This document shows positions 13,201 through 63,960 of a stretch of 64,000 nt of DNA, piece after piece. The stretch spans positions 59,688,255 to 59,752,254 of the forward strand of contig OZ024933.1 in the NCBI GenBank assembly GCA_964017235.1. Direction: 5' to 3'. Below the pieces are notes generated by a model. The model did no database searches, was not told where the DNA came from, and worked only from the letters and a program-made list of their open reading frames with translations. The translations under genes and the position numbers were made by a program. The first letter of the stretch is position 1; every line of letters begins with the position of its first letter. This stretch comes from Sabellastarte sp. h YS-2021. Taxonomy: Eukaryota > Annelida > Polychaeta > Sabellida > Sabellidae.

Positions 13201-16200
13201 GAAACTTCACCAAGTGAAAGCTCTCCCAAAAGTTGGTGAATGAGTTATTTGAGAAAAATTGGCTATCTGCAATACTTTTACAGATAATTCGCATTTACTC
13301 ATTTTGAGTAGGTGAGTAATTAGCTATGGGTCTGAAACTTCACCAAGTGAAAGCTCTCCCAAAAGTAGGTGAATGATTAATTTGAGAAAAATTGGCTATC
13401 TGCAATACTTTTAGAGATAATTTGCATTTACTCATTTTGAGTAGGTGAGTAATTAGCTATGGGTCTGAAACTTCACAGAGTGAAAGCTCTCCCAAAAGTA
13501 GGTGAATGAGTTATTTGAGAAAAATTGGCTATCTGCAATACTTTTAAAGATAATTCGCATTTACTCATTTTGAGTAGGTGAGTAATCAGCTATGGGTCTG
13601 AAACTTCACCAAGTGAAAGCTCTCCCAAAAGTAGGTGAATGAGTTATTTGAGAAAAATTGGCTATCTGCAATACTTTTAGAGATAATTCACATTTACTCA
13701 TTTTCAGTAGGTGAGTAATTAGCTATGGGTCTGAAACTTCACCAAGTGAAAGCTCTGCCAAAAGTAGGTGAATGAGTTATTTGAGAAAAATTGGCTATCT
13801 GCAATACTTTTAGAGATAATTCGCATTTACTCATTTTGAGTAGGTGAGTAATTAGCTATGGGTCTGAAACTTCACAGAGTGAAAGCTCTCCCAAAAGTAG
13901 GTGAATGAGTTATTTGAGAAAAATTGGCTATCTGCAATACTTTTAGAGATAATTCACATTTACTCATTTTGAGTAGGTGAGTAATTAGCTATGGGTCTGA
14001 AACTTCACCAAGTGAAAGCTCTCCCAAAAGTAGGTGAATGATTAATTTGGCAAAAATTGGCTATCTGCAATACTTTTAGAGATAATTCGCATTTACTCAT
14101 TTTGAGTAGGTGAGTAATTAGCTATGGGTCTGAAACTTCACCAAGTGAAAGCTCTCCCAAAAGTAGGTGAATGAGTTAGTTGAGAAAAATTGGCTATCTG
14201 CAATACTTTTAGAGATAATTCGCATTTACTCATTTTGAGTAGGTGAGTAATTAGCTATGGGTCTGAAACTTCACCATGTGAAAGCTCTTCCAAAAGTAGG
14301 TGAATGAGTTATTTGAGAAAAATTGGCCATCTGCAATACTTTTAGAGGTAATTCGCATTTACTCTTTTTGAGTAGGTGAGCAATTAGCTATGGGTCTGAA
14401 ACTTCACCAAGTGAAAGCTCTTTGGGATAGCTGCTCTGCAGAGATACCCTGAAGATAAAAAATTTCGTCGAAATCGCTCTATGTAGCACGGTTTTCGAAA
14501 TATTAGCATTTTTGTGTTTTGCAATTTTTGCGCAAAAATTCGAAAATTCAAAATGGCCGCCATTTTTGGCAAGACAAAATTTTTTTGATAATTGGCTTGG
14601 CTACTCTGTAGAGATACCCTGTGGGTCAAAAATTTCATCGAAATCGCTCTATCTAGCACGGTTTTCGAGATATAAGCATTTTTGTGTTTTGCAATTTTGC
14701 GAAAAATTCGAAAATTCAAAATGGCCGCCATTTTTTGCGAGAAATTTTTTGTTTGAAAATTGGCATGGCTACTCTTCAGAGATACCCTGCGGGTCAAAAA
14801 TTTCGTCGAAATCGCTCTATCTAGCAGGGTTTTTGAGATATAAGCATTTTTATGTTTTACAATTTTTGCGAAAAATTCGAAAATTCAAAATGGCCGCCAT
14901 TTTTGGCGAGACAAAAATTTTTTCAAAATTGGGATAACTACTCTGCAGAGATACCCTGCGGGTCAAAAATTTCGTCGAAATTGCTCTATCTAGCACGGTT
15001 TTGAGATATAAGCATTTTTGTGTTTTGCAATTTTTGCGAAAATTTCGAAAATTCAAAATGGCCGCCATTTTGGGCGAGACAAAAATTTTTTGAAAATTGG
15101 GAAAACTACTCCGCAGAGATACCCTGCGGGTCAAAAATTTCGTCGAAATCGCTCTATCTAGCACGGTTTTCGAGATATAAGCATTTTTGTGTTTTCCTTA
15201 TTTGGAAAATTCGTAATGATTAATTAATCATTAATTACTCGGCCATTTCTTGACCAATCAATGCCAAAATCTAATGATTTCCAGATTTTAATAGAATGAA
15301 TGTATTTGCCAAGTTTCAGGTGAATTGATAAAATTCCTTTCAAGTTATCATCCGGACAAGCTTCCCCATCGAAAAAAGACATTTTTGGTCATGTGACCTC
15401 TCTGATTGGTTGAAATGTCACTGCAGCATATTCAAAAAAATTCCCCAAGGCTACTGCCTAAACCTGCCAAATTTGAAAAGAATCCGCCTAACGGTTACAG
15501 AGTTATAAGGAAAACAAAATGCGGAGCCGGCAGAGCCGCCGGAGCCTGAAGCTCTCCCATACACAAACAAGCGTCCCTTGCGGGACGCTTAATTACTTAA
15601 ATGTAGCTTTTATAAGCTACAAGCTTACCATGTGGGACTTAATGCTGTTCTCGGGTTGCCACACCCGGGGCCAACGTCTTAGAAAAAAAGACCGTTCTTG
15701 TTAGCCACCGGATACACTGCTAGTTGTCGTCACGCGATAACCTCTGACCTCTCGCCCTACTTTCTCGTTGAAATTTTCTAAAACCTACCCCTCAGCTGTA
15801 AACAGCAGGGAGGCAGGGTGGGACTCTTCTAAGTCCCACATGGTAAGCTTGTAGCTTATAAAAGCTACATTTAAGTAATTAAAATTTACAATTTTATTAC
15901 GCTACAATAGCTTACCATGTGGGACTTAATGCTGAATTCAACCGCCCGGTGGCGGGATTACAGCTGAGACTGGAAGATATGTCATTTTTTTCTAAGATTT
16001 TGAATTAATATGTATAGAATAGTGCCAGAAATACCAGTCTGAGTCCCATTTACAGAGCCCCGATCCCGAAGACCGGGCCTGTAACGAGCCAAAAACTTAA
16101 ATAAAATGAGAGACAGGGCTGAAACTGTCTAGATGTTTGATTGTAGGACGGATGTGCAGCAGTGCTCACTTCGAGGTCTAAGGGTCCCTGAGGGCCCTTC

Positions 16201-19200
16201 ACTAGTGACTGACCAACCCATGGTTGGACATCTCATAAATTTTTACAACCTGAATATGAGATTAATGACAACTAAATAAGTCCTTAATATAAGTTACTTG
16301 ATAAGTGAAAAACAAAAATGACCTTACCCGTAACATCTTGAAGGTAAAGGAATACCTAGATCCTGGGAGAGACTCCTGAAGACTTGGTTGTAGCGGATGT
16401 GCCCCCCCCCCCCCCCCCCCTTTTTTTTTCTTTCCGAGGACAACTGGTCTGAGGGGAAGGATCTAGGACTTGTTGTGCCGCCACTACGGGTCCCAGATAC
16501 ATATTGTTGTCGGTGTTCGACCAAGTAAGGTCTTTTAGGTAAAAATTTGTAAATGTGTTGTGAGCTTTCCAGTGACAGGCTTGCATGATTTGGTCCACCG
16601 ATACCCCACCGTAAAAGGCCTTAGAGGCCGCGAAGGCCCGGATGTCATGCGCTTTGACTTGGACCAAGTCCAAGGCTTGTTGATCTGCTTGTTTGTAACG
16701 AAGTAGGATGGTTTGTTTCAACCATGAAGAGAGTGTAGCGGGTCTGATGTCTGAGGTATGTTCTTTCTTAAAGGAGATGAAAAGGAGAGAACGAGACCCT
16801 CTCAGGTCTTTTGTTCGGTCCAAATAAAACCTCAGGGCCCGCACGGGACACAGGGTCCTGTCTTCTTTAAATTGTCTATCTACAATGGTAGTCAAAGCAG
16901 GAATAGTCACCGGAGATACACTTTGAGAACCTTCTCTTGCTAGTTGGTTTTTGGCTATGAAATCAAAAGAAGGGAACAAGGCAACCTTTTCCCATTGGCC
17001 TAGATTAGATACTTGTTTGCGACCCAGGCATGGATTTCGCTGCGGCGCTTGCCGGAGGCCAAAGCTAGCAAGTAAGCAGTTTTGAGAGTAAGATGTTTGA
17101 GGTCTGTGTCTTTCATGGGCTCAAATGGTGCTTTTGTGAGCCCGTTGAGGACAACAGAAAGGTTCCACTTGGGTAAATTTCTGGAACTTTTGGGACGATC
17201 CCTGTGAAAACTGGAGAGTAACCTATGAAGGTCTGCATTGTGTGCAACATGTTGGGCCGTTGGGCCCAAAGTGTCAACGATTGCAGTCCTGTAACCATCA
17301 AAGATCGAGGGGCGCCTGTTTAGGTCTTGGTACAGGTACAATGAAAAAATCTGAGATTTGTTTGACAGATGGAGTGGAGAAATCCACCGAATTTTCTCTG
17401 CACCATTTTTCAAATAGGGCCCACTTTGACTTGTAGATGGCCCTTGTTGAAGACCGCTGAGGGGCGGCAATTCTCTCTGCCACCTCCACAGAGAAGTCTT
17501 GTTCTTGGAGTTGTCCGCTCCTAGACACCAGGCATGGAGGTTCAGGTGCTGGGGTTGTTGTGGAACACATACCTGTGGGACTGTTTGAGTAGGGTCGTTG
17601 ACACTGGGAGTTGTAGTGGGATCTCTGTTGAGAGCTGCACTAGGTCCCAAAACCAGGGCATCCCTGGCCAGCCTGGGGTTATTACGATGATCAGGCAATA
17701 ACATTGCCTGATCTTTTGGATCACCTTGTGAAGGAGCCGTAGGAGGGTACGCATAGGCCGTGAGGTTAGTCCAGTTTATGTTTAGAGCATCTATGTCCCA
17801 GGCCCTTGGGTCTGGGATAGGAGACACGTACAGTGGGAGCTTGTGGTTCAGGTGAGTGGCAAATAAGTCTACATGAGGTGTGAACCACTTCTGGCAGATC
17901 TGTTTGAACACCTGTGGGTGCAGAGACCATTCTGTTGCCTGCACTTGGTTGGACCTGGACAGTAGGTCGGCCATCACATTCAGGCACCCTAGAACGTGCC
18001 TGGCTTTCAATGTTATGAGGTAGTGATGGCCCCAGGTCGTGATCTTCCACAGGAGAGCACACATCTCTGCTGAGTGTGTTCCTTCTTGTTGTTGATGTAG
18101 GCTACCACTGTTGAGTTGTCCATCGCAACTAACACTGTTTGATGCTGGCACTGGTCCTTGAAGTCTCGAAGGGCCAGGGAGACCGCCTTCAATTCTAGGA
18201 CATATATGTGTAGCCTTTTTTCCCGATCTGACCACAGACCCTTTGTGGAATTTGGGTCTAAGTGAGGGCCCCAACCTTCGTTTGAGGCATCGGAAAAGAG
18301 TTGGATACTGTGGTCTTTGGGATGAAGGTCTGCACCTTTCATCACGTTTGAGGGATTTTGCCACCAATCTAGGTGGGCTGCAATGGCTTCTGTCCAAGGA
18401 AGGAGGTTGTGCAGCGACTGAGGATATCTCCAGTGCTCCTTGAGATGAAACTGAAAGGGACTCATGTGAAGGTGTCCCTCCGGGACCATTTTCTCCGTTG
18501 AGGCTAGCAACCCAATAGAGACATCAAACATCTTGTGGTCAAAACACGTTTTGACTTGAGGAGTAGGATCAAATCCTGAAGTTTGAGCCATCTCTCTTGA
18601 GTGGGTTTTATAAGGGCTGAATCTAGGTGGTATTCGTAGCCCATGAACGAAAAACACCTGAGTAGGTTTCAGTTCTGATTTTTTCTGATTTATTATCCAC
18701 CCCAAGGACTGAGTTAGGTCTACCACTGCCTGTGTGTTCACTTGGGCTTCCTCCTGAGACTGGGACCTGATCAGCCAGTCGTCCAGGTATTGGTGAATTC
18801 TGAGTCCTCTTGAGAGGGCTATTGGTTTCACTTCCTTTACGATCATTGTAAAGACCTGGGGGGCTGTGGCTAGTCCGAATGGGAGGGAGGTGAATTGGAA
18901 CACCTGAGACTTGTAGCAAAACCTTAGGTATTTCCTTGAGTTTGGATGGATGGGGATGTGTAGGTAAGTGTCCGACAGATCTATCGACGATACCCACTCC
19001 CCTGGAATCAGGGAGGTCCTGATGGACTCTGGAGTTTCCATTTTGAACTTTTCTACGTGTAGAAAAGTGTTGAGCCTGTTTAGGTCTATGACTGGCCTCC
19101 ACCTTAGGTGAGGCTTGGTACTAGGAACAGGCGACTGTAAAACCCGAGAGATTTTACATTTTCCACCCTTTCTATTGCGTTCTTTGACAGAAGAGACTGG

Positions 19201-20184
19201 GTACAGAGGTCAGGACTTGGTCTTTGAAGGGCCTTGTATTCTGACCGGGTCAGGAGTCTGACTGGACTTGGATTGAAAAGAATGACAGGATTTGTTTGCC
19301 AGTCTTATCTGAAAGAACGGAGAACTCCTACTGGTGGACTGAGTGAGGCTGGAGGAGTCATTGGGGGGGGAAGGGTTTTATGCCCTCGTCCCCTGGAGTG
19401 GGTCGAAAGACCTTGGAGCCTCGGCTACTCGATTTCCCCCTACCTGGGGAAAACGATGGATACTGCTTGGGATAGAATGACCCCCATAGGGGTGGTTCCT
19501 GTAGGAGCCTCTAGATGTGGGGAATTGGAAAGGGTTGATTAATAGGGCCTAAACCCTAAGTGTTATTACAGGTGCCTTGATGAGGGACTCCTGTCCCTCC
19601 TAAAGTAGTTGTGAATGGGAAACTTTAAGATCTAAAGATCCAGTATCTCACCTGAATTCACCATACCCCTTCTGACTACTTAAATGCACTATGGAATTGA
19701 GTTTGACCTGTCTGGTAGTAGCTGTGCTACTGTCTTAACATATATATATAACCAGGTTGTATTCAGAAAAAAACCTAGTGAAGAGCAGCCTGAAGCTCAA
19801 CTCTTGCTGACCAGAAGGGGAGGAGGGGCTTACCCAAGGAGGCCCCTAAGGAGATACAAATTTGAAAACTTGTTCCATTTTAAGGGAAATTAAACGGCCC
19901 AAGTTCCTGTTGGCCTAGTAAGTCATTCAGAGTCCGGACTGTGGAGGATCTAGGCATAAATTCCCTGGGGGCAGGGAGGTTCAAAAAACTACCTAAGTTT
20001 CAATGTCCTCAAAAATTGTTTAGGGTGAAGTCAGGCAACCTACTTCCCTAAAATACAGAGCCAGGACTGAATGAAGGACCTTGTTTAGAAGGCCTCTTGG
20101 GCTTGAGGACTTGGACTTGAACTTGGACCCAAGCCTCCAATAGGTGATATTTACTGCCAGGCTGGTGAACTATTAGTCCAAGTT

Positions 20185-20217
<33 letters not shown>

Positions 20218-23200
20218 AGGATTGTTAGTGTTCTGATCTGGAATCAACATCCGAGCATCAGATTAGATGATCCGATCATCCGAGGATCAGATCTACATAC
20301 AATCCACCAAGCATTAGATTTCAGATGATCCGAGAGATGCAATGAAAACCGAGTATCAAATCATACTTGGGCAAATAGAAGTTGGGAGTACTGCATCCGA
20401 TTCTCGGATGCATTAAAAATCTCGGATGAACTAAGATCTTATCTGAATTTAAGCAGGGATCTGATCCACCCTGGAGAAAGAAGTTGGATATTATAATTTC
20501 TATGTAAGCTTTCCTTAAGGTAAGCTTCCATGTAAGCTTTGCCTTTCCTTCTTTGAAGGAACTACACAACTAGATTTACGTAAGTAAATCAACTGTGACA
20601 CAAGGTCACCTGCCCCACCCGCCTCACTGCAGGTAGGGCTAGTTGTGAGAAAAGGAAAGCAGAAATTACACAGAATTTTATTAAATAACATAGAATCTAA
20701 AAAACAAGTAAATTATAATTTAAAACTGGATGAATTAAAATATAATTAAAATAATGGGTAACCAAGGTTACCTATAGCCTAAAGAGACACGTAATGTCTA
20801 GAGGATTAATGAAGAATTCTATTCCTGTTTATTTAAGTAATAACCTTATAAATGGTCAATAATACAGGAAAGAAGAGATAAAATATATTATTTAATTTTA
20901 TATTTTATTTATATTTATAGATGTACTGAAAGAAAACCCGCGTCTCTCAGCACATGCGGTCTAGACGTGACGTCATCACAGGGGTTTCCCCGAGGATTCC
21001 CCCAGTTAAAATCGTGCTTTACATCATATTTTAACCCTTAAAATGGACCAATAGAGTAGAAGAACGGGGATAAACCATTGCAAAATTTATTTTATTTGAT
21101 TTCAACAGGCATATATTCCTGTATATAAACTACCAACACGAGACGTGCAAATTGCTAAGAAATGCTGTTGTAAAATATGCTAAAAATACTTATCTGAACT
21201 ACGAAAAGACATCGAATTGTGATTCTATGTAATAAAATAAAGAAACTGGTGTAGTTTCCATATCCAACGACTAGAATATCCTTGTAAAAATGAAATAATA
21301 TTCCTTGTAAAATAAAGCATTGCTAATTCTCGTGGCCAACGAGAAAGTAGGGCGAGAGGTCAGAGGTTATTACGTGACGACAACTAGCAGTGTATCCGGT
21401 GGCTAACAAGAACGGTCTTTTTTTCTAAGACGTTGGCCCCGGGTGTGGCAACCCGAGAACAGCATTAAGTCCCACATGGTAAGCTATTGTAGCGCAATAA
21501 AAATGACCACTTAAAAGGATGCTGATAAATGGTCACCGTTGAGTCTGTCTTTTATTTAAGGGAACGTATGTAATTTGAGAGTTGGACTGTACTTGTACAG
21601 TGGGATAGACCAAATACTGCTTTGAGTCCTGTATTACATCATAGAGATATTGCGCTGATAATAAACACACAATACAATATGTATTGTTCTAAATACTCTT
21701 TGTAGCTTCACTAAATTTCATTTCAATATTTATTGATTTGATTTACTTGAGTTTAATGTTGCTTTCAAGACATTGTGTACGTTTTACATGACAGGCCGTT
21801 TTAAGGGCAGAGGAAACCAGTACATATTAGTTGGTGAGGATTCGGCACTATACACTGCTGGACATTTCTAAGCAACTACCAACTTTCCCCACATAGGGCT
21901 TTGGGTTTGAACCACAGACCTCAGATGTGGGAGGAAAGTATGTTAACCACTACACCACCAAGCCCCCTCTTCAATGTGTAATAGTCAAAAATGTATGAAT
22001 TCCAAATGTGTACAGTAGTCAAAAATGCATGAATTCCAAATGTGTACAGTACAAGTGTGTGATTATTTTTTATCAGAGTTCTGAAGCCAATACAGAAACA
22101 GGCTTGATTTTGGGTGAATCCCCTATTATGGGCTTTTCATCTTTTGTTCGTGTAAATAAAGAGGTTTTTTGTATATATTCAATATAAAGCAAGGAAACTG
22201 CATACTGGGACTACTGACAAAGCACATTACCATGACAACAGGAGGTTAAGCACAATTTAAACAGATACACTGTCACTATCTTGGTATGCCTTGAAAGAAA
22301 TTATTTGATGTTAACAATGTTTACCTGTGGTATTTGATATTATAGAATTTTATAGGTAAAATTTAACATTGAGAAATTTTACTATTTGCATTTTTAAATT
22401 GGGTGTCAGGGATTCTTATAACTGTAACGACAACTATAACTGTAATTTATAAACCAGTAGAGTTAGAGCCCATTTTTAAACTACTGAGGCTGAAATTTGT
22501 AGACACTGAAAATCACAAAGGAACTGAGATAATGTACTGACCTATTTATACTTAGTCCTTGTGCGTTACTATTATACAGCAACTGCCACCCTCCTTGTAA
22601 AACACTGCTCTAAAATAAAAACAGAATTATCAGTGTTTTCCCCAGATAATAACTTTTTTTTCCAATTGTTTCAATGTACCAATGTATTTATTTTAATGTG
22701 TTCAATACTTTTGTAAGTGTAGAATCTTTATATTTGCAGAATTCTGAGTAGAACTATATAATTATGAAATTCCAAAGAAGGCTCATACTAAAACCAAGGC
22801 TTGTGGACAAAAAATGTTTCAAGTTTGTTTCAGTGCTGGAATTAACAGTCAATTATTGGTACTGAAGAACAAAAATAGTACTTGTGTGTAATAGGTCATT
22901 ACTTTAGTCCAATAATCTTGACATGCCTAGTTTAAGCTTAGATACTTCATACACTACTTACTAGTGGGAGATGTAATCTGGATTCCAGCTGGTCAATGTG
23001 ACTAGAGGTGTTGCTAGGGAAGTAAACCGGAAACAGTTGGCATGACAACAAATAGATTGCCACCACTGACAACAGGTACTTGTTATTTGTAAGATCAATG
23101 AAGAATTCAGACTGACTGATTGCACTTGGCTGAAAATAGAGGAAGATAAAACTAGAGGATCGCTCGCAAAAAAAAGATAATGTTTTTGCATAGCAAAAAC

Positions 23201-26200
23201 AAAGCGTCCCGAAAAGGATATAAAGGTGAGTGCTAAAGTATTAAGAAAATGCTTCGTTTCTAGCCTTATAGTGTGGTGGCAACCAAAGTCAGCGCAGTCT
23301 GCTCTATGTAGCACGGTTTTCAAGATATAAGCATTTTTGTGTTTTGCAAAAAATTCGAAAATTCAAAATGTCCGCTATATTTGGCGAGACAAAAATATTT
23401 TTGAAAATTGGCATGGCTACTCTGCAGAGATACCCAGCAGGTCAAAAATTTTGTTCAGTTCGCTCCATGTAGCACGGTTTTCGAGATATAAGCATTTTTG
23501 TGTTTTGCAAAAACTTTGAAAATTCAAAATGGCCACCATTTTTGGTGAGACAAAAATTTTTGAAAACAAGACCACTGCCGCGGTGTGTATCTCCCGCCGA
23601 GCATTAAAGGAGAAGAAATAGCTTTTCCGAGATATTCACAATTTTTCATTTTTGTGTGTGAAAGCTCTTCCAAAAGTAGGTGAATGAGTTATTTGAGAAA
23701 AATTGGCTATCTGCATTACTATTAAGAGATAATTAGCATTTACTCCTTTTGAGTAGGTGAGTAATTATCTACGGGTCTGAAACTTCACCAAGTGAAAGTT
23801 CTCCCAAAAGAAGATGAATGAGTTATTTGATAAAAATTGGGTATCCGCAATACTTTTAGAGTTAATTCGCATTTACTCATTTTGAGTAGGTGAATAATTA
23901 GCTATGGGTCTGAAACTTCACCATGTGAAAGCTCTCCCACAAGTAGATGAATGAGTATTTGATAAAAACTGGGTATCCGCAATACTTTTACAGATAATTA
24001 GCATTTACTCATTTTAAGTAGGTGAATAATTAGCTATGGGTCTGAAACTTCACCGAGTGAAAGCTCTTCCAAAAGTAGGTGAATGAGTTATTTGAGAAAA
24101 ATTGGCTATCTGCAATACTTTGAGATAATTCGCATTTACTCATTTTGAGTAGGTGAGTAATTAGCTATGGGTCTGAAACTTCACCATGTGAAAGCTCTTC
24201 CAAAAGTAGGTGAATGAGTTATTTGAGAAAAATTGGTTATCTGCAATACTTTTAAGATATAATTCGCATTTACTCATTTTGAGTAGGTGAGTAATTATCT
24301 ACGGGTCTGAAACTTCACCATGTGAAAGCTCTCCCAAAAGTACATGAATGAGTTATTTGATAAAAATTGGGTATCTGCAATAGTTTTTGAGATAACTAGC
24401 ATTTACTCATTTTGAGCAGGTGAGTAATTAGCTACGGGTCTGAAACTTCACCATGTGAAAGCTCTCCCAAAAGTAGATGAATGAGTTATTTGAGAAAAAT
24501 TGACTATCTGCAATACTTTTAGAGGTAATTTGCATTTACTCATTTTGAGTAGGTGAGTAATTAGCTATGGGTCTGAAACTTCACAATGTAAAAGCTCTTC
24601 CGAAAGTAGGTGAATCAGTTATTTGAGAAAAATTGGCTATCTGCAATACTTTTAAGAGATAATTCGCATTTACTCATTTTGAGTAGGTGAGTAATTATCT
24701 ATGGGTCTGAAACTTCACCATGTGAAAGCTCTCCCAAAAGTACATGAATGAGTTATTTGATAAAAATTGGGTATCCGCAATAGTTTTTGAGATAATTAGC
24801 CTTTACTCATTTTAAGTAGTTGAGTAATTAGCTACGGGTTTCTAAACTTCACCGAGTGAAAGCTCTCCCAAAAGTAGGTGAATGAGTTATTTGAGAAAAA
24901 TTGGCTATCTGCAATACTTTTAGAGGTAATTCCCATTTACTCATTTTGAGTAGGTGAGTAATTAGCTATGGGTCTGAAACTTCACCATGTGAAAGCTCTT
25001 CCAAAAGTAGGTGAATGAGTTATTTGAGAAAAATTGGCTATCTGCAATACTTTTAAGAGATAATTCGCATTTACTCATTTTGAGTAGGTGAGTAATTATC
25101 TACGGGTCTGAAACTTCACCATGTGAAAGCTCTCCCAAAAGTACATGAATGAGTTATTTGATAAAAATTGGGTATCCGCAATAGTTTTTGAGATAATTAG
25201 CATTTACTCATTTTGAGTAGGTGAGTAATTAGCTACGGGTCTGAAACTTCACCATGTGAAAGCTCTCCCAAAAGTACATGAATGAGTTATTTGATAAAAA
25301 TTGGGTATCCGCAATAGTTTTTGAGATAATTAGCATTTACTCATTTTGAGTAGGTGAGTAATTAGCTACGGGTCTGAAACTTCACCATGTGTAAGCTCTT
25401 CCAAAAGTAGATGAATGAGTTATTTGAGAAAAATTGGCTATCTGCAATACTTTTAAGAGATAATTCGCATTTACTCATTTTGAGTAGGTGAGTAATTATC
25501 TACGGGTCTGAAACTTCACCATGTGAAAGCTCTCCCAAAAGTAGATGAATGAGTTATTTGATAAAAATTGGGTATCCGCAATAGTTTTTGAGATAATTAG
25601 CATTTACTCATTTTGAGTAGGTGAATAATTAGCTACGGGTCTGAAACTTCACCGAGTGAAAGCTCTTTGGGATAGCTGCTCTGCGGAGATACCCTGAAGA
25701 TAAAAAATTTCGTCGAAATTGCTCTATGTAGCACGGTTTTCGAAATATTAGCATTTTTGTGTTTTGCAATTTTTGCGCAAAAATTCTAAAATTCAAAATG
25801 GCCGCCATTTTTGGCAAGATAAAATTTTTTTGAAAACTGGCATGGGTACTCTGCAGAGATACCCTGTGGGTCAAACATTTCGTCGAAATCGCTCTATCTA
25901 GCACGGTTTTCGAGATATAAGCATTTTTATGTTTTGCAAAAACTTCGAAAATTCAAAATGGCTGCCATTTTTGGCGAGACAAAATTTTTTTGAAAATTGG
26001 CATGGCTACTCCCAAAATGGCCGCCATTTTTTGCGAGACAAAATTTTTTTGAAAATTGGCAAGGTCAAAAATTTCGTCGAAATCGCTCCATCTAGTACGG
26101 TTTTCGAGATATAAGCATTTTTATGTTTTGCAATTTTTGCGAAAAATTCGAAAATTCAAAATGGCTGCCATTTTTGGCGAGACAAAATTTTTTTGAAAAT

Positions 26201-29200
26201 TGGGATAACTACTCTGCAGAGATACCCTGTGGGTCAAAAATTTCGTCTAAATCGCTCTATCTAGTACGGTTTTCGACATAAAAGCATTTTTGTGTTTTCC
26301 TTATTTGGAAAATTCATAATGATTAATTAATCATTAATTACTCGGCCATTTCTTAACCAATCAATGCCAAAATCTAATGATTTCCAGATTTTAATAGAAT
26401 GAATGTATTTGCCAAGTTTCAGGTGAATTGATAAAATTCCTTTCAAGTTATCATCCGGACAAGCTTCCCCATCGAAAAAAAGACATTTTTGGTCATGTGA
26501 CCTCTCTGATTGGTTGAAATGTCACTGCAGCATATTCAAAAAAATTCCCCAAGGCTACTGCCTAAACCTGCCAAATTTGAAAAGAATCCGCCTAACGGTT
26601 ACAGAGTTATTAATGACTACTACAGACGCTTAATGACTACTTCTTCATTACATATTATTTTATCCCAGTATGAGAAAGTATTTACAAATAGGGATAATGT
26701 TTTATTGTTAAAAAAAACATTTCAATGAGATTTATATTTCTTTCCACATTGACCTGTGTTGAAAGCATCTTTATTTATTACACTTATTATAAATTAAATG
26801 AACAAAACATTCTGCAACATCTTATATATCTGCAACATATACAATAAAAATATTCCATTACATCACACTGACCCCCAAATCATCAAATAAAATCTCTAAA
26901 TACCTGTTGAAAGTCACATGACTTGAGTTTCTGACATACAAAAGTGTGAAGAGGATCAAGCAAGCGATGACAATTTCTATGTATCCATGATTCGAACTGG
27001 TCTTTTTTCAGAACACCATCCTGTGCCAGAGAAAGCTGAGTGCAAAACAATACAAACAGAAATAAACCTAGAAAAAAAAATTTAGGCACAAACAATGCAT
27101 CCCACTCAAGGAAGCTGAAGGTTTATAAAGTGGGAAAACGTACCAAGTGACATATACAAAAAGAAATATATTGCAAACTAAGATGACAAAATAAAACTAG
27201 AGGATCGCTCGCAAAAAAAAAAAGATAATGTTTTTGCATAGCAAAAACAAAGCGTCCCGAAAAGGATATAAAGGTGAGTGCTAAAGTATTAAGAAAATGC
27301 TTCGTTTCTAGCCTTATACTGTTGTGGCAACCAAAGTCAGCACAGTCTAGCACGGTTTTCAAGATATAAGCATTTTTGTGTTTTGCAAAAAATAAAAAAA
27401 TTAAAAATGTCCGCTATATTTGGCGAGACAAAAATATTTTGAAAATTGGCATGGCTACTCTGCAGAGATACCCAGCAGGTCCAAAATTTTGTTCAGTTCG
27501 CTCCATATAGCACGGTTTTCGAGATATAAGCATTTTTGTGTTTTGCAAAAACTTTGAAAATTCAAAATGGCCACCATTTTTGGGGAGACAAAAATTTTTG
27601 TCAAGACCACTGCCGCGGTGTGTATCTCCCGCCGAGCATTAAAGCAAAAGAAACAGCTTTTCCGAGATATTCACAATTTTTCATTTTCGTGTGTGAAAGC
27701 TCTCCCAAAAGTAGGTGAATGAGTTATTTGAGAAAAATTGGCTATCTGCAATACTTTTAGAGATAATTCGCATTTACTCATTTTGAGTAGGTGAGTAATT
27801 AGCTATGGGTCTGAAACTTCACCATGTGAAAGCTCTCCCACAAGTAGATGAATGAGTATTTGATAAAAATTGGGTATCCGCAATACTTTTACAGATAATT
27901 AGCATTTACTCATTTTGAGTGGGTGAATAATTAGCTATGGGTCTGAAACTTCACAGAGTGAAAGCTCTCCCAAAAGTAGGTGAATGAGTTATTTGAGAAA
28001 AATTGGCTATCTGCAATACTTTTAGAGATAATTCACATTTACTCATTTTGAGTAGGTGAATAATTAGCTATGGGTCTGAAACTTCACCAAGTGAAAGCTC
28101 TCCCAAAAGTAGGTGAATGAGTTATTTGAGAAAAATTGGCTATCTGCAATACTTTTAGAGATAATTCACATTTACTCATTTTGAGTAGGTGAGTAATTAG
28201 CTATGGGTCTGAAACTTCACCAAGTGAAAGCTCTCCCAAAAGTAGGTGAATGAGTTAATTGAGAAAAATTGGCTATCTGCAATACTTTTAGAGATAATTC
28301 GCATTTACTCATTTTGAGTAGGTGAGTAATTAGCTATGGGTCTGAAACTTCACCAAGTGAAAGCTCTCCCAAAAGTAGGTGAATGAGTTATTTGAGAAAA
28401 ATTGGCTATCTGCAATACTTTTAGAGATAATTCACATTTACTCATTTTCAGTAGGTGAGTAATTAGCTATGGGTCTGAAACTTCACCAAGTGAAAGCTCT
28501 TCCAAAAGTAGGTGAATGAGTTATTTGAGAAAAATTGGCTATCTGCAATACTTTTAGAGATAATTCGCATTTACTCATTTTGAGTAGGTGAGTAATTAGC
28601 TATGGGTCTGAAACTTCACCGAGTGAAAGCTCTCCCAAAAGTAGGTGAATGAGTTATTTGATAAAAATTGGCTATCTGCAATACTTTTAGAGATAATTCG
28701 CATTTACTCATTTTGAGTAGGTGAGTAATTAGCTATGGGTCTGAAACTTCACCAAGTGAAAACTCTCCAAAAAGTAGGTGAATGATTTATTTGAGAAAAA
28801 TTGGCTATCTGCAATACTTTTAGAGATAATTCGCATTTACTCCTTTTGAGTAGGTGAGTAAGTAGCTATGGGTCTGAAACTTCACCATGTGAAAGCTCTC
28901 CCACAAGTAGATGAATGAGTTATTTGATAAAAATTGGGTATCCGCAATAGTTTTAGAGATAATTAGCATTTACTCATTTTGAGTAAGTAAATAATTAGCT
29001 ATGGGTCTGAAACTTCACCATGTGAAAGCTCTCCCAAAAGTAGGTGAATGAGTTATTTGAGAAAAATTGGCTATCTGCAATACTTTTAGAGATAATTCGC
29101 ATTTACTCATTTTGAGTAGGTGAGTAATTAGCTATGGGTCTGAAACTTTACCATGTGAAAGCTCTTCCAAAAGTAGATGAATGAGTTATTTGAGAAAAAT

Positions 29201-32200
29201 TGGCTATCTGCAATACTTTTAAGAGATAATTCGCATTTACTCATTTTGAGTAGGTGAGTAATCATCTACGGGTCTGAAACTTCACCATGTGAAAGCTCTC
29301 CCAAAAGTACATGAATGAGTTATTTGATAAAAATTGGGTATCCGCAATAGTTTTTGAGATAATTAGCATTTACTCATTTTGAGTAGGTGAGTAATTAGCT
29401 ACGGGTCTGAAAAGTGAAAGCTCTTTGGGATAGCTGCTCTGCAGAGATATCCTGAAGATAAAAAATTTCGTCGAAATCGCTCTATGTAGCACGGTTTTCG
29501 AAATATTAGCATTTTTGTGTTTTGCAATTTTTGCGCAAAAATTTGAAAATTCAAAATGGCCGCCATTTTTGGCAAGATAAAATTTTTTTGAAAATTGGCA
29601 TGGCTACTCTGCAGAGATACCCTGTGGGTAAAAAATTTCGTCGAAATCGCTCTATCTAGCACGGTTTTCGAGATATAAGCATTTTTGTGTTTTGCAATTT
29701 TTGCGAAAAATTCGGAAATTCAAAATGGCCGCCATTTTTTGCGAGAAATTTTTTGTTTGAAAATTGGCATGGCTACTCTGCAGAGATACCCTGCAGGTCA
29801 AAAATTTCGTCGAAATCGCTCTATCTAGCAGGGTTTTCGAGATATAAGCATTTTTATGTTTTGCAATTTTTGCGAAAAATTCGAAAATTCAAAATGGCTG
29901 CCATTTTTGGCGAGATAAAATTTTTTTGAAAATTGGCATGGCTACTCTGCAGATATACCCTGTGGGTCAAAAATTTTGTCGAAATCGCTCTATCTTGCAG
30001 GGTTTTCGAGATATAAGCATTTTTATGTTTCGCAAAAATTGCGAAAATTTCGAAAATTCAAAATGGCCGCCATTTTTGGCGAGACAAAAATTTTTTGAAA
30101 ATTGGGAAAAGTACTCCGCAGAGATATCCTGCGGGTCAAAAATTTTGTCGAAATTGCTCTATCTAGCACGGTTTTTGAGATATAAGCATTTTTGTGTTTT
30201 GCAATTTTTGCGAAAATTTCGAAAATTCAAAATGGCCGCCATTTTGGGCGAGACAAAAATTTTTTGAATATTGGGAAAACTACTCCGCAGAGGGTCAAAA
30301 ATTTCGTCGAAATCGCTCTATCTAGCACGGTTTTCGAGATATAAGCATTTTTGTGTTTTCCTTATTTGGAAAATTCGTAATGATTAATTAATCATTAATT
30401 ACTCGGCCATTTCTTGACCAATCAATGCCAAAATCTAATGATTTCCAGATTTTAATAGAATGAATGTATTTGCCAAGTTTCAGGTGAATTGATAAAATTC
30501 CTTTCAAGTTATCATCCGGACAAGCTTCCCCATCGAAAAAAGACATTTTTGGTCATGTGACCTCTCTGATTGGTTGAAATGTCACTGCAGCATATTCAAA
30601 AAAATTCCCCAACGCTACTGCCTAAACCTGCCAAATTTGAAAAGAATCCGCCTAACGGTTACAGAGTTATAAGGAAAACAAAATGCGGAGCCGGCGGAGC
30701 CGCCGGAGCCTGAAGCTCTCCCATACACAAACAAGCGTCCCTTGCGGGACGCTTAATGAGTGCATGAGTATTATATTGTTAATCTTCATGAGTAATGTAT
30801 TTTGTTGTAGATGTCCAACTTGTATGTGTTTTAGTTTTATAATCCAGCATTTTGTATGAAAATTAAAGTACAGTAGCACCTTTATTATCCAATGCTCTAT
30901 TATCTGAACTTTTCAATTAACTGATCTCAAACTTACTGTCACAAATCCATTTAAACCTATTATTTTAGGCTTTCTATTATCTGACTTTTTGGTTAAGTGA
31001 CCTACCTGTCACTCACACAAAAGGGTCAGATAATACAGGTTCTACCTTAATTCAATATTTAAAAGAAAAAGATTAAAAAGGTTGTCATATATAGTACGTA
31101 GTGGTGGTATTGTAACATTGTTTACAGATATCAAAACCGGTTACTGGGGCTTTAAAAGGAAATGAAATCCGGTATTTTGTATGCTTGTTACTGTGCAGTG
31201 AAAATTAATCGCAGAGGTACATGTAACTTGCAAATGGAAATGGCTTTCATGAGATATCATTAAGTATGTAAACATGATTTTTGCTCAATATAAAGTAAAA
31301 ATGTGACATATTTTACAAAATATGTATATTTTTGTAGTTTTGATAAAGTATCAGCCATAGAAAACCTTAAAAAATAATATTTTTAATAACTGGTTCCCAA
31401 ATATTCTTTGCGGATTTTGTCGTTTCTACCACAACAAAATATACCAGATGCTGGCATACCATTAACAACACTAATACTTGGTACCAAAAATAAGAAAACT
31501 TTTATTTTTAACTTGAGATTTCTCTACCATTTCAGCATGGGTTTTAATGCAACAAAACCGAGTTGAATAATACTGTAGTAATTTATTTATTTATGTCAAT
31601 CATAAATTTTGAGTTCAGAAGACTGCAGCGTGGTTAAAACTCACTTTGTCAGGCTGTTCTAAAGTCCCACATTTTTTCCAGCCCCTTCAGCCATTCTGCA
31701 CCAACTTTCTTAACTCTCTTCTTTTCCACGTAAGAAGTAGCCCCTCAGTTATATCATTTACCAATCATCTTGAGATTCATCTCTTCAACTCAAGCTTTCC
31801 ACTTAGTCTTCTTCCCTCTGTTTACACTCTCAACCCTGGATTACTGACCTAGATCATCCATTGACTATCCCTTTAGTCATTTCTTTTGTTATTTAGTGCA
31901 CTAAGTTTCCTATAATGGGGGAACATTGTGCACCAGCGAAGCCGTTGAATAGTTAGATTAGACTGAAATGATAAGTTTGATTCTCTTTCAAATGGCTGAT
32001 GCCACATTCTAAAATATTTGTTAGTCTAATTTCATTGTTCCTGATTAATTTCCTCACCAGGCTCTGCACTGCAGATTTAATGGACTGGTTCTCAACTGCT
32101 TCAGTATGACTACAACCACAGAGCACCAGTCCAGCTTTACAGCAAGATTTGACTAGATCTCCACAATCTGAAACAAATCAACACAGTTGAGATCATAAAA

Positions 32201-35200
32201 GTAGAATTACCAATTAAGGGGATGCAAGTAAAGTTTTGAATACATCTGTACCATTAGTTTCAGTCCATGTACGCTGAAGTCAACTTTAAAAAGACCAACT
32301 TATTAAAAAGACCAGTCAATTTCTGCACTCTGCACAATAAAAAAAGCAAAATAAATACAGTCAAGACTGAGTTAAACTTAAGTTGAAGTAAATATCAAAT
32401 CTTAAATCTGGGGATAACAAGACATGGGAACAGAATGAAGGCTACATTTTTATTCAAATGCAAGATTTTGCTTCAGAGTTGCAAAACATTGCGAAAAAAA
32501 AGTTAAATTTAATTTGAGCTCTAAAATTATCACTTTACCATACATAGTAACATTCAATCACCTACCTTTTTCATTCAGACCCTCTTTATCTGATGAAAAC
32601 AAGTTGAAATAAAAATCAGAACATTCCTGAAAGTGCTCTTTCTGAGTCAGCTTATTAGCAAAGTCTATGAATGTCTTCTCTGTGATATTTTGGTCACTGG
32701 GTACCTTAGTTTCAACACTAGACACAACTAAATGATTCCCTGGCTGGCTAACTGTTCTCGTTTCTTCTGGGACAAATTCACCATCCTTTAGGGATTTTGA
32801 TGTTTCTCTTTCTTGATGCGATTTCAAGGACATGTAGATTAGTTCTGATAGCTCCAAGAAACTTGGAAACAAAATGGACTGAAATATATAAAGCACACTT
32901 GTGTCAAAATATAACTAGACCTAGCGCATCGGAGAACTGATGCAAATTGTATCCACCAGAAAGAAAACTCACCAAAGCCAATGAACCATCGCTTAACCTT
33001 GAAGGAGGAGCCCAAGGTGAAATCTGACCACATCAAAAGATTCTTAGCCCATGATTTCCTATAGGTTGGTGCGACATTGCAAACCTCTAGGAACATGAAT
33101 AAGCGAGATATAAGCATTTTTAATTTTGGCTATTCCCATTGGGCCTTGAAAGAGGGGCCAAAGGTCAAATGTGATCACATCAAAAGATTCCTAGCCCATG
33201 ATTTCCTATGGGTTGGTTTCACATTGGAAACCTCTAGGACCGATAACACGCGAGCTATAAGCACTTTTAAGTTTGGGTATCCTTGTTTGACCTTGAAGGA
33301 GAGGTCCAAGGTCAAATCTGACCACATCAAAAGAATCCCAGCCCATGATTTCCTATAACTTGCTTTCACATTGTAAACCTCTTGGACCAATATTAAGCGA
33401 GTTATAAGCACTTTTAGGTTTGGCTATCCTCATTTGACCTTGAAGGAGAAGCCCAAGGTCAAATCTGACCACACCAAAAGGTTCCCAGTCCATGATTTCC
33501 CATAAGTTGGTTTACCATCCCAAACCTCTAGGACCAATAATAAGCAAGTTATAAGCACTTTAAAGTTTGACTATCCTTGTTTGACCTTCAAGGAGGGGTC
33601 CAAGGTCAAATCTGACCACACCAAAAGATTCCCAGCCCATGATTTCCAAGAGGTTGGTTTGCCCTCCAAACCTCTAGGACCAATAATAAGTGGGTTATAA
33701 GCACTTTTAAGTTTGGTTATCCTTGTTTGACCTTCAAGGAGAGATCCAAGGTCAAATCTGACTACACCAAAAGATTCCCAGCCCATGAGTTCCTATAGGT
33801 TGGTTTACATTCCCAAACCTCTATGACCAATAATAAGCGAGTTATAAGCACTTTTAAGTTTGGCTATCCTTGTTGGACCTTGAAGGAGGGGTCCAAGGTC
33901 AAATCTGACCACACCAAAAGATTCCCAGCCCATGATTTCCAATAGGTTGGTTTGCCCTCCCAAACCTCTAGGACCAATAATAAGTGGTTTATAAGCACTT
34001 TTAAGTTTGGTTATCCTGGTTTGACCTTCAAGGAGAGGTCCAAGGTCAAATCTGACCACACCAAAAGATTCCCAGCCCATGATTTCCTATAGGTTGGTTT
34101 ACAATCCCAAACCTCTAGGACCAATAATAAGCGAGTTATAAGCACTTTTAAGTTTGGCTATCCTCGTTTGACCTTGAAGGAGGAGCCCAAGGTCAAATCC
34201 AATCACACCAAAAGATTCCCGCCCATGATTTCCTATAGCTTGGTTTACCATCCCAAACCTCTAGGACCAATAATTAGCGAGTTATAAGCACTTTTAGGTT
34301 TGGCTATCCTCGTTTGACCTTGAAGGAGGGGTCCAAGGTCAAATCTGACCACACCAAAAGATTCCCAGCCCATGATTTCCAATAGGTTGGTTTACCATCC
34401 CAGACCTCTAGGACCAATAATAAGCGAGTTATAAGCACTTTTAAGTTTGGCTATCCTCGTTTGACCTTGAAGGAGGGGTCCAAGGTCAAATCTGACCACA
34501 CCAGAAGATTCCCAGCGCATGATTTCCTATAAGTTGGTTTACCATCCCAAACCTGTATGACCAATAATAAGCGAGTTATAAGCACTTTTAGGCTTGGCTA
34601 TCCTCGTTTGACCTTGAAGGAGGGGCCCAAGGTCAAATGTTACCACACCAAAAGATTCCCAGCCCATGATTTCCTATAGGTTGGTTTACCATCCCAAACC
34701 TCTAGGACCAATAATAAGGGAGATATAAGCTCTTTTCATGACTGACAAAGAAACACCTGTGGCGGCCATCTTGTTTTTCAAAATGAGGCCAAAAATACTC
34801 CCAGTCAAGATTTTGTAATGAGGAACAGATCCTGCGAATTTAAGATCTCTACCTATAATACCCTTTGCTCTAGAGGGCCAATAAAAGTCCTTGCTTAAAG
34901 TCGAATAAACATCCCTGGCAGCCAGAAAGATTTCACGGTCATGAATATATCCTGCAAATTTGAGAAGGCTAGCTATGATATTTTTTCGTTAGAACGGTAA
35001 CAGTGAAATCTCTCTATACACTGCGGCGACGTAACGAAGCAAAATCTGTAGTATCCACCGGCAAGGCAAATTTAGGTCAAAGCAGAACCTGTTTGAAGTA
35101 CCAACATCAAAAATGCTATCATGTTGTAAGCATAAATACAAACTGGACAGAACTATTATAAATAAATCTGGTGGAATGGTGAAAGTTCCAGTTAAATAGT

Positions 35201-38633: not shown

Positions 38634-38664
<31 letters not shown>

Positions 38665-42850: not shown

Positions 42851-43185
42851 AAATCATGTGTTTTGATTTATTTTCTCCCCAAGTTATCTATCATGAGAGG
42901 AACCAGGTTCTTTTGTAAATAAGGGAAAATATACATAAACAAATTTCCTTGGCATCATATAATATTACATATACACATACTGGAATTGACATCAGCTATT
43001 TCTTAACATGTATGAGTGCTCTATGAATAGAAAACACATGTACATATTTGAAAAATGCATGGGAAAATTTGAGCCTAAAGCAAGGCTAGGGAAAAAAACA
43101 TCATATCCATTTGTACATATACCATTTTCAACACAAACAGATAGTGAGATAAACACTGCATGAAAGCAGCATTAAATGAGATATA
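42851..43185. other. No recognisable feature
   Basis: AT-rich sequence between the candidate retrocopy and array B. If the retrocopy call is right, this would hold the displaced 5' leader of the MEAK7-like gene. I see no clear promoter elements. Confidence 0.35.
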
Positions 43186-43189
43186 ACCA

Positions 43190-44020
43190 AAAAACACATC
43201 TGTGATTTTATGACCCCAGTTTGACCCACAAGGCAGGACCAGGAGTAAATATGACCAGCTTTCTAGATTCCCTGCATATGATTTTCTATCACCTCCTAAT
43301 ACATTCAAAAGCTCTAAAAATAATAATAAAGGAAATAAAAGCCAAAAACACAAAATCTGCGTTTTATGACCACAGTTTTACACCTAAAGGGACCAGAGGG
43401 TTAATCTGACTGGCTATATAGACTCCCTGTATATGGTTTCTTTTTACCTCCCAACACGTTCAAAACCTGTAAAGCAATAATAAAGGAGATAAAAGCCTAA
43501 ACACAAAATCTGTGATTTTGTAACCCCAGTTTGTCCCATAAAGGGGGTCTGGGGGTAAATCTGACCGGCTTTCTAGACTCCCTGCATGTGGTTTCCTACT
43601 ATCTCCCAATACATTCAAAACCTCTAAAAGCAATAATAAAGGAGATAAAAATGAAAAACACAAAACCTGTGATTTTATGACCCTACTTTCACCCATTACA
43701 GGGGACCAGGGGGTAAATCTGACCGGCTTTCTAGACTCCCTATTTATGGCTTCCTATTACCTTCCAATACATTCAAAACTTCTAAAAACAATAATAAAGT
43801 AGATAAAAGCCAAAAACACAAAATCTGTGATTTTATGACCCCAGTTTGACCCACAAGGGTTGGGGCAGGGGGTGAATCTGACTGTCTTTCTAGAATCCCT
43901 GCATATGGTTTCCTTCTACCTCCCAATACATTCAAAAACCTCTAAAAGCAATGATAAAGGAGATAAAAGCGAAAAACACAAAATCTGTGATTTTATGACC
44001 CCAGTCTGACACACTCCTAC
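43190..44020 (-). repeat. Tandem array B, ~146-bp unit, about 6 copies
   Basis: Units with 'tttatgaccccagtttgacc', 'gtaaatctgaccggctttct', 'agactccctgcatatggttt', 'aataataaaggagataaaag'. Aligns unit-for-unit with array A (both have '..aaatctgacc..', '..attcaaaacctcta..', 'caataataa..gagataaaagc'), so the two arrays are diverged relatives. Confidence 0.88.
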
Positions 44021-44595
44021 TGTAAGTAGTTTTTTGCTGAGCGGAGATGACAAGCAGGTGTTCAAGAAAAAATTAATTTCATCATGTGACCTTGATACAT
44101 GTCAAAGGTCAAAAATAAGCATGTGGAAAAACTTTCCAAGCATAAGGTATGTAATTAAAAATAGCATCAGAGATGCCCGTACCCCACAGCCTAGGGAAAT
44201 ATTTTCAACACCATGAGATACAGAAGTACTGTATCAGTATAAACTTTAGGATACTTTCAGAGCACTGTCAGTTATATAAAGGTCCAAATAATGTTTAAAA
44301 GAAAGATCATGCATATAAAGATGAAGTATTAAAACACGATAATTCAATAACAAGATGACAGCATTAATCAGCAAACTAAAATTCAACCCTCTTTATCTAC
44401 ATCTGCATGGCCAAATTATGGTTTAGATGGTTTGAATATTACCATGCATATATAAGTGGTAATACATTTAATGAATGCTTATGTGTGGTGTTGGAGCAAA
44501 ATCTGTGGCTCACTTGATGAAATTCTATCTCTTACAATGGGAAGTTATGAAAGTAAAATTCTTAATAAATTCTAATATGACTTTAACAGTGCTTA
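44021..44595. other. No recognisable feature between arrays B and C
   Basis: Contains scattered 'aaggtcaaa' phrases related to the neighbouring arrays but no ORF and no clear repeat unit. Confidence 0.4.
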
Positions 44596-44599
44596 ATCT

Positions 44600-46080
44600 G
44601 CATCAAAAGAGGGACCCAAAGGTGCAACAAGATTTTATAGGTCAAGGTCACTAGGACAAGGTCAAAGGTCAAACTAAGGTGACACCATGATAATACACAC
44701 CTACAGCCCCTAACCAATGTCCCTACCAAGTATCAACTTCCTCAACCCTACCGTTTCCAAGATATAGCCCGGACAAGATTTTATAGGTCAAGGTCACTAC
44801 GCCAAGGTCAAAGGTCAAATCAAGGTCAGACCATGACGTTGCACAACTATATCCCCTAACCAATGTCCCTACCAAGTACCAACTTCCTACACCTTACGGT
44901 TTCCGAGATATAGCCTGGACAACATTTTATAGGTCAAGGTCACTATGGCAAGGTCAAAGGTCAAATCAAGGTCAGACCATGACATTGCACACCTACACCC
45001 CCTGACCAATATCCCTACCAAGTATCAACTTCCTACACCTTACGGTTTCTGAGATATAGCCCGGACAAGATTTTATAGGTCAAGGCCACTACGGCAAGGT
45101 CAAAGGTCAAATCAAGGTCAGACCATGATACTGCACACCTACACCCCCTAGCAAATGTCCCTACCAAATATCAACTTCCTACACCTGACGGTTTCCGAGA
45201 TATAGCCCGAACAAGATTTTATAGGTCAAGGCCACTATGGCAAGGTCAAAGGTCAAATCAAGGTCAGACCATGACGTTGCACACCTACACCCCCTAACCA
45301 ATATCCCTACCAAGTATTAACTTCCTACACCTTACGGTTTCTGAGATATAGCCTGGACAAGATTTTATAGGTCAAGGTCACTACGGCAAGGTCAAATCAA
45401 GGTCACACCATGACGTTGCACACCTACACCCCCTAACCAATGTCCTTACCAAATATCAACTTCCTATACCTTACAGTTTCCGAGATATAGCCTGGACAAG
45501 AATTTATAGGTCAAGGTCACTACGGCAAGGTCAAAGGTCAAATCAAGGTCAGACCATGACGTTGCACAACTACACCCCCTAACCAATGTCCCTACCAAGT
45601 ATCACCTTCCTACACCTTACGGTTTCCGAGATATAGCCCAGACAAGATTTTATAGGTCAAGGTCACTACGGCAAGGTCAAATCAAGGTCAGACCATGACG
45701 TTGCACAACTACACCCCCTAACCAATGTCCCTACCAAGTATCAACTTCCTACACCTTACGGTTTCCGAGATACAGCCCGGACAAGATTTTCAAACTCAAG
45801 GTCACTACGGCAAGGTCGAAGGTCAAATCAAGGTCAGACCATGACGTTGCACAACTACACCCCCTAACCAATGTCCCTACCAAGTATCAACTTCCTACAC
45901 CTTACGGTTTCCGAGATACAGCCCGGACAAGATTTTCAAACTCAAGGTCACTACGGCAAGGTCAAAGGTCAAATCAAGGTCAGACCATGACGTTGCACAC
46001 CTACACCCCCTAACCAATGTCCCTACCAAGTATCAACTTCCTACACCTTATGGTTTCTGAGATACAGCCCGGACAAACTA
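44600..46080 (+). repeat. Tandem array C, ~146-bp unit, about 10 copies
   Basis: Units carry 'gattttataggtcaaggtca', 'aaggtcaaatcaaggtcaga', 'ccatgacgttgcacacctac', 'tccctaccaagtatcaactt', 'acggtttccgagatatagcc'. Landmark positions near 44,777, 44,923, 45,069 and 45,215 give 146 bp; later units vary slightly in length through loss or gain of 'caaaggt'. Confidence 0.95.
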
Positions 46081-46170
46081 TTTCCCGCCGCCCGCCCGCC
46101 CGCCCATCCGGACACCATGGGTGAAAACAATACCCTGACAGCCCTTAAGGGCTGTGGGGTAAAAATGGTT
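46081..46170 (+). mobile_element. Terminal region after array C with perfect 18-bp palindrome
   Basis: After a short (CCCG)n stretch, ACAGCCCTTAAGGGCTGT (46,138-46,155) is a perfect palindrome followed by 'ggggtaaaa'. A terminal hairpin after a tandem core is the layout of the Helentron-like elements, so array C is probably the core of another such element. Confidence 0.5.
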
Positions 46171-49589: not shown

Positions 49590-49885
49590 ACGCTCGACGA
49601 TAAGAGAGGGTTATTGTGATCAGTTTGTGTCTGTCTTTCTGTCTGTGCACCGTTTTGTCCTTATAACTCAAAAACTATAACATCAATTGAGCTCAAATTT
49701 GGAGGGCAGGTATTTCATGGGGTACAGACAAATTCTTCCAAATTTGGTGTTGTTTAAAAATTAAAGTCAGGAGAGAGTTTTTCTTATTTTTAATTGGGCA
49801 AATACAGTGAAATCTGCTTCTCTGCCTCACAAACCGAAATCAATATTTTGCTTTCTGATGATGTCATTATATTAATGATGTCACA
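49590..49885 (+). repeat. Dispersed ~290-bp repeat, copy 1
   Basis: 'gctcgacgataagagagggt', 'tattgtgatcagtttgt', a (TGTC)n microsatellite, 'cttataactcaaaaactata', 'aattcttccaaatttggtg' and 'caggagagagtttttctt' are all repeated at 63,667-63,960 in the same orientation. No ORF. Confidence 0.85.
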
Positions 49886-60225: not shown

Positions 60226-60228
60226 AAA

Positions 60229-61996: not shown

Positions 61997-62024
61997 TTTC
62001 AGTTTGATTTTTCAAGTCTAGAAG

Positions 62025-63470: not shown

Positions 63471-63666
63471 GTAAGTTTTACGCCATCTTCTATTTTTTTG
63501 TCTCTGTGATGTTTAGTCTGGTCTCCATACAACTTTTCTCTGTAAGCAGGGTTCGCCATTTTAATTCAATGTCTTTTCTCCACCAAGTAATGGTAGAAAA
63601 ATTGTTATGTACACATATCTTGCTTGCGTATATTTTGCACATTTTAAAAGATTATGTCTCCCTTTT

Positions 63667-63960
63667 TAATGCTCGACAATAGGAGAGGGTTATTGTGATC
63701 AGTTTGTTTCTGTCTTTCTGTCTGTCTGTCTGTCTGTGCACCGTTTTGCCCTTATAACTCAAAAACAATAACATCAATTGAGGTCATATTTGGTGGGCAG
63801 ATACGTCCTGGGGTACAGATGAATTCTTCCAAATTTGGTGCAATTTGTTTGAAAAGTAAAATCAGGAGAGAGTTTTTCTTTTTTTCAATTGGGCAAATAC
63901 AGAGAAATCTGATTCTCCTCATCACATACCTAAACAAGATGCACTCAGAGAGAGCAAAAC
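63667..63960 (+). repeat. Dispersed ~290-bp repeat, copy 2
   Basis: Same sequence and orientation as 49,590-49,885, with a longer (TGTC)n run. It ends near 'aaaacgctcgactcg', echoing its starting 'tgctcgac'. In the intron after exon 3 of the TSP1-like gene. Confidence 0.85.

Follow-up and report, generated by a model that had tools for sequence, protein, structure and literature searches.

A segment of about 75 bp recurs in the tandem repeats of several families of non-autonomous Helentrons (HINEs), and it is probably the relic of an ancestral monomer of about 130–190 bp common to these elements. We studied it in a 64,000-nucleotide stretch of DNA (the window, C7:59688255-59752254) and scanned the whole genome, which comprises 1.786 Gb in 647 contigs. 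An initial annotation had described a module of about 50 bases in at least six repeat families, and each of the instances it named was recovered, letter for letter and in place. These instances lie on the forward strand everywhere except in the two 290-bp repeats, where they lie on the reverse strand. When eight repeat units are compared in a common register, their similarity falls mainly within about 75 bp, from −45 to +34 around a GAGWTAT core, and units that share this segment in one register and orientation are mostly unalignable elsewhere. The initial description is confirmed in part. A module of some 50 bases is supported at full length in four hosts: array C, the 40.3-kb array, the 290-bp repeat and the 172/133-bp elements, in whose tails it lies. 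Elsewhere it is reduced to its right half (172-bp unit and array A) or is weak (133-bp unit and array B, the latter linked mainly via array A).

The 172/133-bp elements are represented by three forward-strand copies, at 11512-15592 (copy 1), 23151-26612 (copy 2) and 27196-30756 (copy 3), with a common 5' end (ACTAGAGGATCGCTCGC in copy 1). For copy 3, the computation gave a pair of subterminal inverted repeats (27250-27262 and 30742-30754; 13 bp with one mismatch). A 3' palindrome is found at 15569-15590 in copy 1 and at 30733-30754 in copy 3, while copy 2 is truncated, its 3' end being lost within the second tail module. The 172-bp units, which have a period of 169 bp and carry the right half of the module, occupy 14422-15195, 25667-26298 and 29425-30359, with short runs at 11665-11923, 23301-23566 and 27346-27599. 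The 133-bp units, in which the module is weak and which had not been listed previously, occupy 12017-14421, 23658-25666 and 27693-29424. Between both arrays stands a lone module-like phrase (11981-12013, 23622-23654 and 27657-27689), whose 1.9–4.1 bits lie inside the shuffle range. The tails contain two modules, T1 (15308-15360, 26411-26463 and 30472-30524) and T2 (15466-15510, 30630-30674 and, truncated, 26570-26614); the pairs starting at 26411/26570 and 30472/30630 add to those already known. T1 and T2 are separated by 158 bp from start to start in copy 1, and the arrangement resembles two degenerate monomers.

Further units occur in two other elements with recognizable ends. HINE A (32914-35066, forward strand) has its 5' end at 32914, a 5' subterminal repeat at 32947-32957 and an eroded 3' end; its array of 147-bp units (array A) spans 32989-34736 on the same strand. 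Four copies have a readable 5' end, in the window and at the genomic loci L048, L050 and L051. Only the copy in L050 is complete, with subterminal inverted repeats and palindrome; in L048 and L051 other arrays are reached before any 3' end. HINE C (44157-46166, forward strand) has subterminal inverted repeats at 44179-44191 and 46150-46162, a palindrome at 46138-46155, a CCCG-rich microsatellite, and an array of 146-bp units (array C) at 44627-46076, also forward. Its ends were found in 5/5 copies, including that of the window, with differing flanks: the subterminal repeat is TACCCCACAGCC and the palindrome is centred on TTAA, with a changed base in one of the five. Array B (43163-44010, forward strand), made of 158-bp units with a weak module, shows homology to array A over the greater part of the unit, and a search for HINE ends around it found none. 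The 290-bp repeat has two copies on the reverse strand, at 49591-49839 (module at 49651-49702) and 63670-63934 (module at 63742-63793). Its parts follow in the order common left end, GTCT microsatellite and module, and it belongs to a longer element, for which a common left end was found and no subterminal inverted repeats. At L053 the repeat is tandem at 187 bp, and a nested copy at this locus is compatible with insertion between two T nucleotides and no duplicated target.

The fourth element with HINE ends, HINE H (40134-41015, forward strand), has subterminal inverted repeats at 40154-40166 and 41003-41015, a palindrome at 40990-41011, and units at 40278-40966 (forward) that carry the module and a GACA-rich microsatellite. 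It is nested in a Harbinger element (35895-41640) that hosts it and is not part of the module. The initial annotation had placed this array, at 40.3 kb, inside the Harbinger element. The position is correct, and the array is a separate nested HINE that does not belong to its host. An empty, uninterrupted site was present in 2/2 other Harbinger copies, and two loci without Harbinger similarity contain the 5' end (L014) and the 3' end (L018) of HINE H. The empty sites are compatible with an insertion between two T's that duplicates no target, but a few shared bases leave them ambiguous. Given its own HINE ends and these empty sites, we rejected the array as a part of the PIF/Harbinger element. 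This matters for the proposal that a functional module was captured by several unrelated kinds of transposons (Helentron, Harbinger and others). The module array does sit inside Harbinger coordinates, and the hosts of array B and of the full 290-bp element are without class, which leaves room for other kinds of carriers. However, the Harbinger case is already refuted by the finding of a complete inserted HINE, so that capture has lost its main support, and we give it almost no credence.

The Harbinger element itself encodes a DDE transposase (PF13359) and a MADF protein (PF10545), and its 150 scored matches in the genome (of 14,212 first-look candidates) are all 99–100% identical. The transposase of the window has one in-frame stop (37077-37079), and open frames of about 430–446 aa exist in many copies elsewhere. 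A histone-type 3' stem-loop follows both genes, at 37661-37701 (forward) and 38718-38733 (reverse), with two copies after the transposase stop in the window. Against a cut-off of 34 bits, the Rfam Histone3 model gives 35.2 for the MADF side and 32.4, which falls below it, for the transposase side. Six other Harbinger copies have the stem-loop on the transposase side in 6/6 cases and on the MADF side in 5/6, one with a changed loop base; the sixth copy (L057) ends just before the position of the MADF-side stem-loop. Judging from these motifs, this may be a Harbinger element with histone-type mRNA 3' ends. No paper linking Harbinger elements and the histone stem-loop was found by title among the matches listed.

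HINEs are described as having subterminal inverted repeats of about 11–15 bp, a palindrome near the 3' end, and insertions between T and T without duplication (PMC4067079). Four hosts of the segment (the 172-bp elements, A, C and H) have such ends, and each has a subterminal inverted repeat of its own. These repeats were found in the window for copy 3 of the 172-bp elements, C and H, and in L050 for A; the palindrome is present in the same elements and also in copy 1. These hosts count as four HINE families, because the family rule, as worded in PMC4067079, demands identical subterminal repeats. We found 24 matches to Helitron_like_N in the genome, which are candidates for autonomous Helentrons. 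The window also contains two stretches of retrotransposon-like frames, at 2688-6909 and 16356-19209, both on the reverse strand. A reverse transcriptase (PF00078) was identified in 18013-19209, and three other frames tested had no Pfam match. Two frames (2688-3263 and 16356-17120) resemble what we take to be the tyrosine recombinase of DIRS-type elements.

The similarity between units could be a chance likeness of AT-rich repeats selected by eye. We tested this in six ways (profiles, alignment of consensus units, the left half of the module, sliding windows, decoys and genome counts). Profiles built from single families gave borderline matches to other families of the window: 11.8 bits from F1 to A (E 0.01), and 10.3 both from F1 to C and from C to F1. 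The best scores over 20 shuffles per profile were 2.6–9.7 for F1 and 2.7–9.2 for C. The C profile scored inside the shuffle range on the 40.3-kb array (7.8), the tail (6.5) and the 290-bp repeat (4.4). One or two pairs of profiles are not decisive, because single-family profiles reach other families weakly. We then compared the consensus units of 8 families in 28 pairs, using Smith-Waterman alignments against 200 dinucleotide shuffles. This revealed 10 pairs with p < 0.05 on the strand of the module versus 1/28 on the opposite strand. The best alignment spans the module in nine of these ten pairs, the exception being UA-UC, which aligns at another box. UA and UB are alignable over most of the unit, and array C aligns with the 40.3-kb array over 62 bp without gaps. 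In the shuffled control suggested by the initial annotation, these ten pairs of consensus units align better than shuffles, but several of the single-profile matches do not leave the shuffle range.

The left half of the module, i.e. the part that does not define the phrase, was compared in register in 36 pairs. It gave p < 0.05 in 11 pairs (1.8 expected) and p < 0.01 in 9; among array C (UC), the 40.3-kb array (UH), the 290-bp repeat (R290), T1 and T2, p was below 0.05 in 10/10 pairs and below 0.01 in 8/10. In-register windows sliding from −45 to +34 had 4–11 of 36 pairs with p < 0.01 (0.36 expected), in a scan that favours core windows because the anchors were picked on the core. Windows starting at +15 or beyond had none, showing that the segment is bounded. 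Windows to the left of the segment had 1–3 pairs, mostly UA-UB; the pairs UA-UC, T1-T2, UA-T1 and UC-R290 each turned up in just one or two of these windows. A weak second box lies near −90 in the pairs A-B, A-C and T1-T2, with similar spacing in UA-UC. The phrase itself matched 108/160 letters in 8 other units. The maxima for decoys were 100 (42 decoys from the phrase's own unit, the top one overlapping the module) and 98 (60 random 20-mers). When anchors were placed mechanically, the left half showed a small excess, with p < 0.01 in 3/27 pairs and p < 0.05 in 5/27 (UA-UB is omitted from the decoy count). Here the random 20-mers reached maxima of 2 pairs (p < 0.01) and 6 pairs (p < 0.05), and those decoys from the phrase's own unit that overlap the module reached 7 and 3, while the others among those listed reached at most 2. 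A chance likeness would account for the borderline profile comparisons, the modest excess under mechanical anchors and the weakness of U133 and UB. However, shuffles, opposite strand, register scan and phrase decoys all favour a genuine similarity. We conclude from these comparisons that the module is real, with five strong instances, and that chance is a highly improbable explanation.

The segment is abundant in the genome. The 20-base phrase, with at most 2 mismatches, has 77,614 matches (39,393 + 38,221), versus 1 + 0 for the reversed control. For the strong class, the two-part pattern, with at most 1 mismatch, has 41,672 (20,356 + 21,316), versus 190 (116 + 74) for its reversed form. These counts mostly reflect large families. 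Among the matches listed there are also forms absent from the window, with at most 8/35 mismatches (e.g. C1:3661614 and C1:12940281). At 13 arbitrarily placed 10-kb loci, we counted 16 arrays with units of 90–260 bp. Eleven are similar to families found in the window, though only distantly so in two cases, and six of the eleven are of the weak types (four of the 133-bp type and two of B). The remaining five comprise one simple-sequence array, a pair of arrays in L020, and single arrays in L013 and L021. At L021:798-1655, a 156-bp array outside the known families comes right after units of the array C type, and a module-like phrase can be seen in it by eye. Of 20 stretches requested, 13 existed. 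Loci L042, L047 and L052 are repeats of the window and were excluded from the analyses of breakpoints, conservation and array counts. Loci L002, L006 and L008 overlap L001, L005 and L007; they were excluded from the array count, as was L001, and kept for breakpoints and conservation. Viral contigs had 20 matches to a short pattern and none to the two-part pattern. A search of the window with Rfam (E up to 5) gave 8 matches, none inside the module arrays, and a search of paper texts for the letters of the module returned no transposon or satellite paper by title among the matches listed.

Of the two origins initially proposed, descent of several non-autonomous families from one ancient ancestor fits these observations, given the four hosts with HINE ends and the weak second box shared by UA-UB and UA-UC. 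The module would be a segment of about 75 bp in the monomers of about 130–190 bp that build the centres and tails of several HINEs. One ancestral monomer would have been amplified repeatedly within elements that move by rolling-circle transposition. The segment may have persisted in recognizable form after the rest diverged, either by slow long-term constraint or by occasional exchange between arrays, and its present high copy number would be carried by the elements. That the segment sits in units of similar length speaks for common descent. Under neutral descent, however, one would expect an even decay along the monomer, yet it is mainly this segment that can be aligned.

Alternatively, the segment may be a cis-acting site of Helentrons, bound for example by Rep/helicase or by a host protein in rolling-circle replication or array recombination, and selected and exchanged between families. 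Such a site would be expected to leave traces of selection within families. The 172-bp module did rank first of 175 windows for conservation in one analysis (17/169 once weighted by source), and the core of array B ranked 6/158, but the combined test of the module against its flanks in six families gave p = 0.21 (0.20 for the core). The module is thus not significantly more conserved than its flanks, an outcome that the initial annotation had listed among those that would refute its reading, although the closeness of many copies to one another limits the power of the test. The module of array A (rank 118/147) leans against conservation. A relative of the 172-bp unit in L021 has 4/18 letters of the core changed, and only 4 in the preceding 45 bp.

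The array boundaries and junctions can be read in the same two ways. Some boundaries fall just 3' of the core, as a cis-acting site might produce (+14 and +17 in array C, +16 in array A), but breakpoints are scattered all around the units. They include a loose group at about −10 to +31, which we do not claim as a recombination site because it was seen only after looking. Arrays of different families adjoin in three loci: an A-type array and its right flank are followed by array C units in L048 and L049, and by 172-like units in L051. Exchange at a cis site could bring such arrays together. However, when up to 3 mismatches are allowed, the genome contains a single instance of the L048 junction and a single one of the L051 junction, and therefore these are single events and not amplified composite elements, an option that we rejected for both. 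A segment bounded on both sides, in families with different ends, is what a cis-acting site would predict, but with these results we regard such a site as unlikely. We favour descent from a common monomer over repeated capture because the constraint within families is not significant, the array ends are scattered and the junctions are single events. What had appeared to be a mysterious signal in six unrelated families becomes a set of HINE families with different ends that share a segment of their monomers. This bears on the origin and persistence of Helentron-borne satellites, and on whether internal sequence is required by Helentrons in addition to their ends.

We compared the segment with DINE-1/mini-me, described as blocks A1-(CCGT/CTGT)n-A2 with central repeats, for which BLAST is reported to have found no related sequences outside Diptera (PMC2374699). 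Structurally similar elements are listed from molluscs and others (PMC4067079). The order of the 290-bp repeat, end-(GTCT)n-module, matches the order A1-(GTCY)n-A2 of DINE-1. Of 9 units compared with a putative DINE-1 stretch, array C and the 290-bp repeat align to it at the module, each with p = 0.001; the other seven units showed no alignment at the module with p < 0.05. Probes for DINE-1 gave nothing in two sequence collections, nor did pieces of the putative stretch in paper texts. We take the resemblance as a lead only, because the letters of this stretch matched no collection or paper searched. Were it verified, it would indicate a cis element of great age. The segment beside the (GACA)n/(GTCY)n microsatellite would then be a deeply conserved part of Helentrons, common to this animal and to the DINE-1 of flies and retained, from a time before the two lineages split, because of some function in rolling-circle transposition, a reading that we find possible, if rather doubtful.

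The elements of the window can also be compared with those of bivalves. According to the descriptions in PMC7492417, the Cg_HINE elements of oysters have subterminal inverted repeats, a 3' palindrome, a microsatellite and central arrays mostly of 140–180-bp units, as here, with two arrays in some elements. In the same source, the HINE monomers of cluster CL4 have two conserved segments common to CL1/2/10/13 and are otherwise dissimilar. Satellite repeats of oysters are dominated by Helitron-associated ones (PMC11136912). Unlike in Cg_HINE as described, a single segment here connects units whose hosts carry four different subterminal repeats, and joins them to element tails and to the 290-bp repeat. 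The initial annotation knew of no named description of the module. For the bivalve monomers BIV160/Cg170, the passages of PMC5139131 report two motifs that are well conserved despite divergence, and junctions loosely near these motifs, without statistical support. Repeats of the pearl element CvA are related to BIV160/Cg170, and Cg170 arrays occur in Helitron-type elements (PMC5139131). A named counterpart may accordingly exist, though we do not file the module under BIV160/Cg170. BIV160/Cg170 have two motifs, and the units of the window have one main segment and one weak second box. Set beside these oyster and clam monomers by description, the pattern of the module appears similar in kind.
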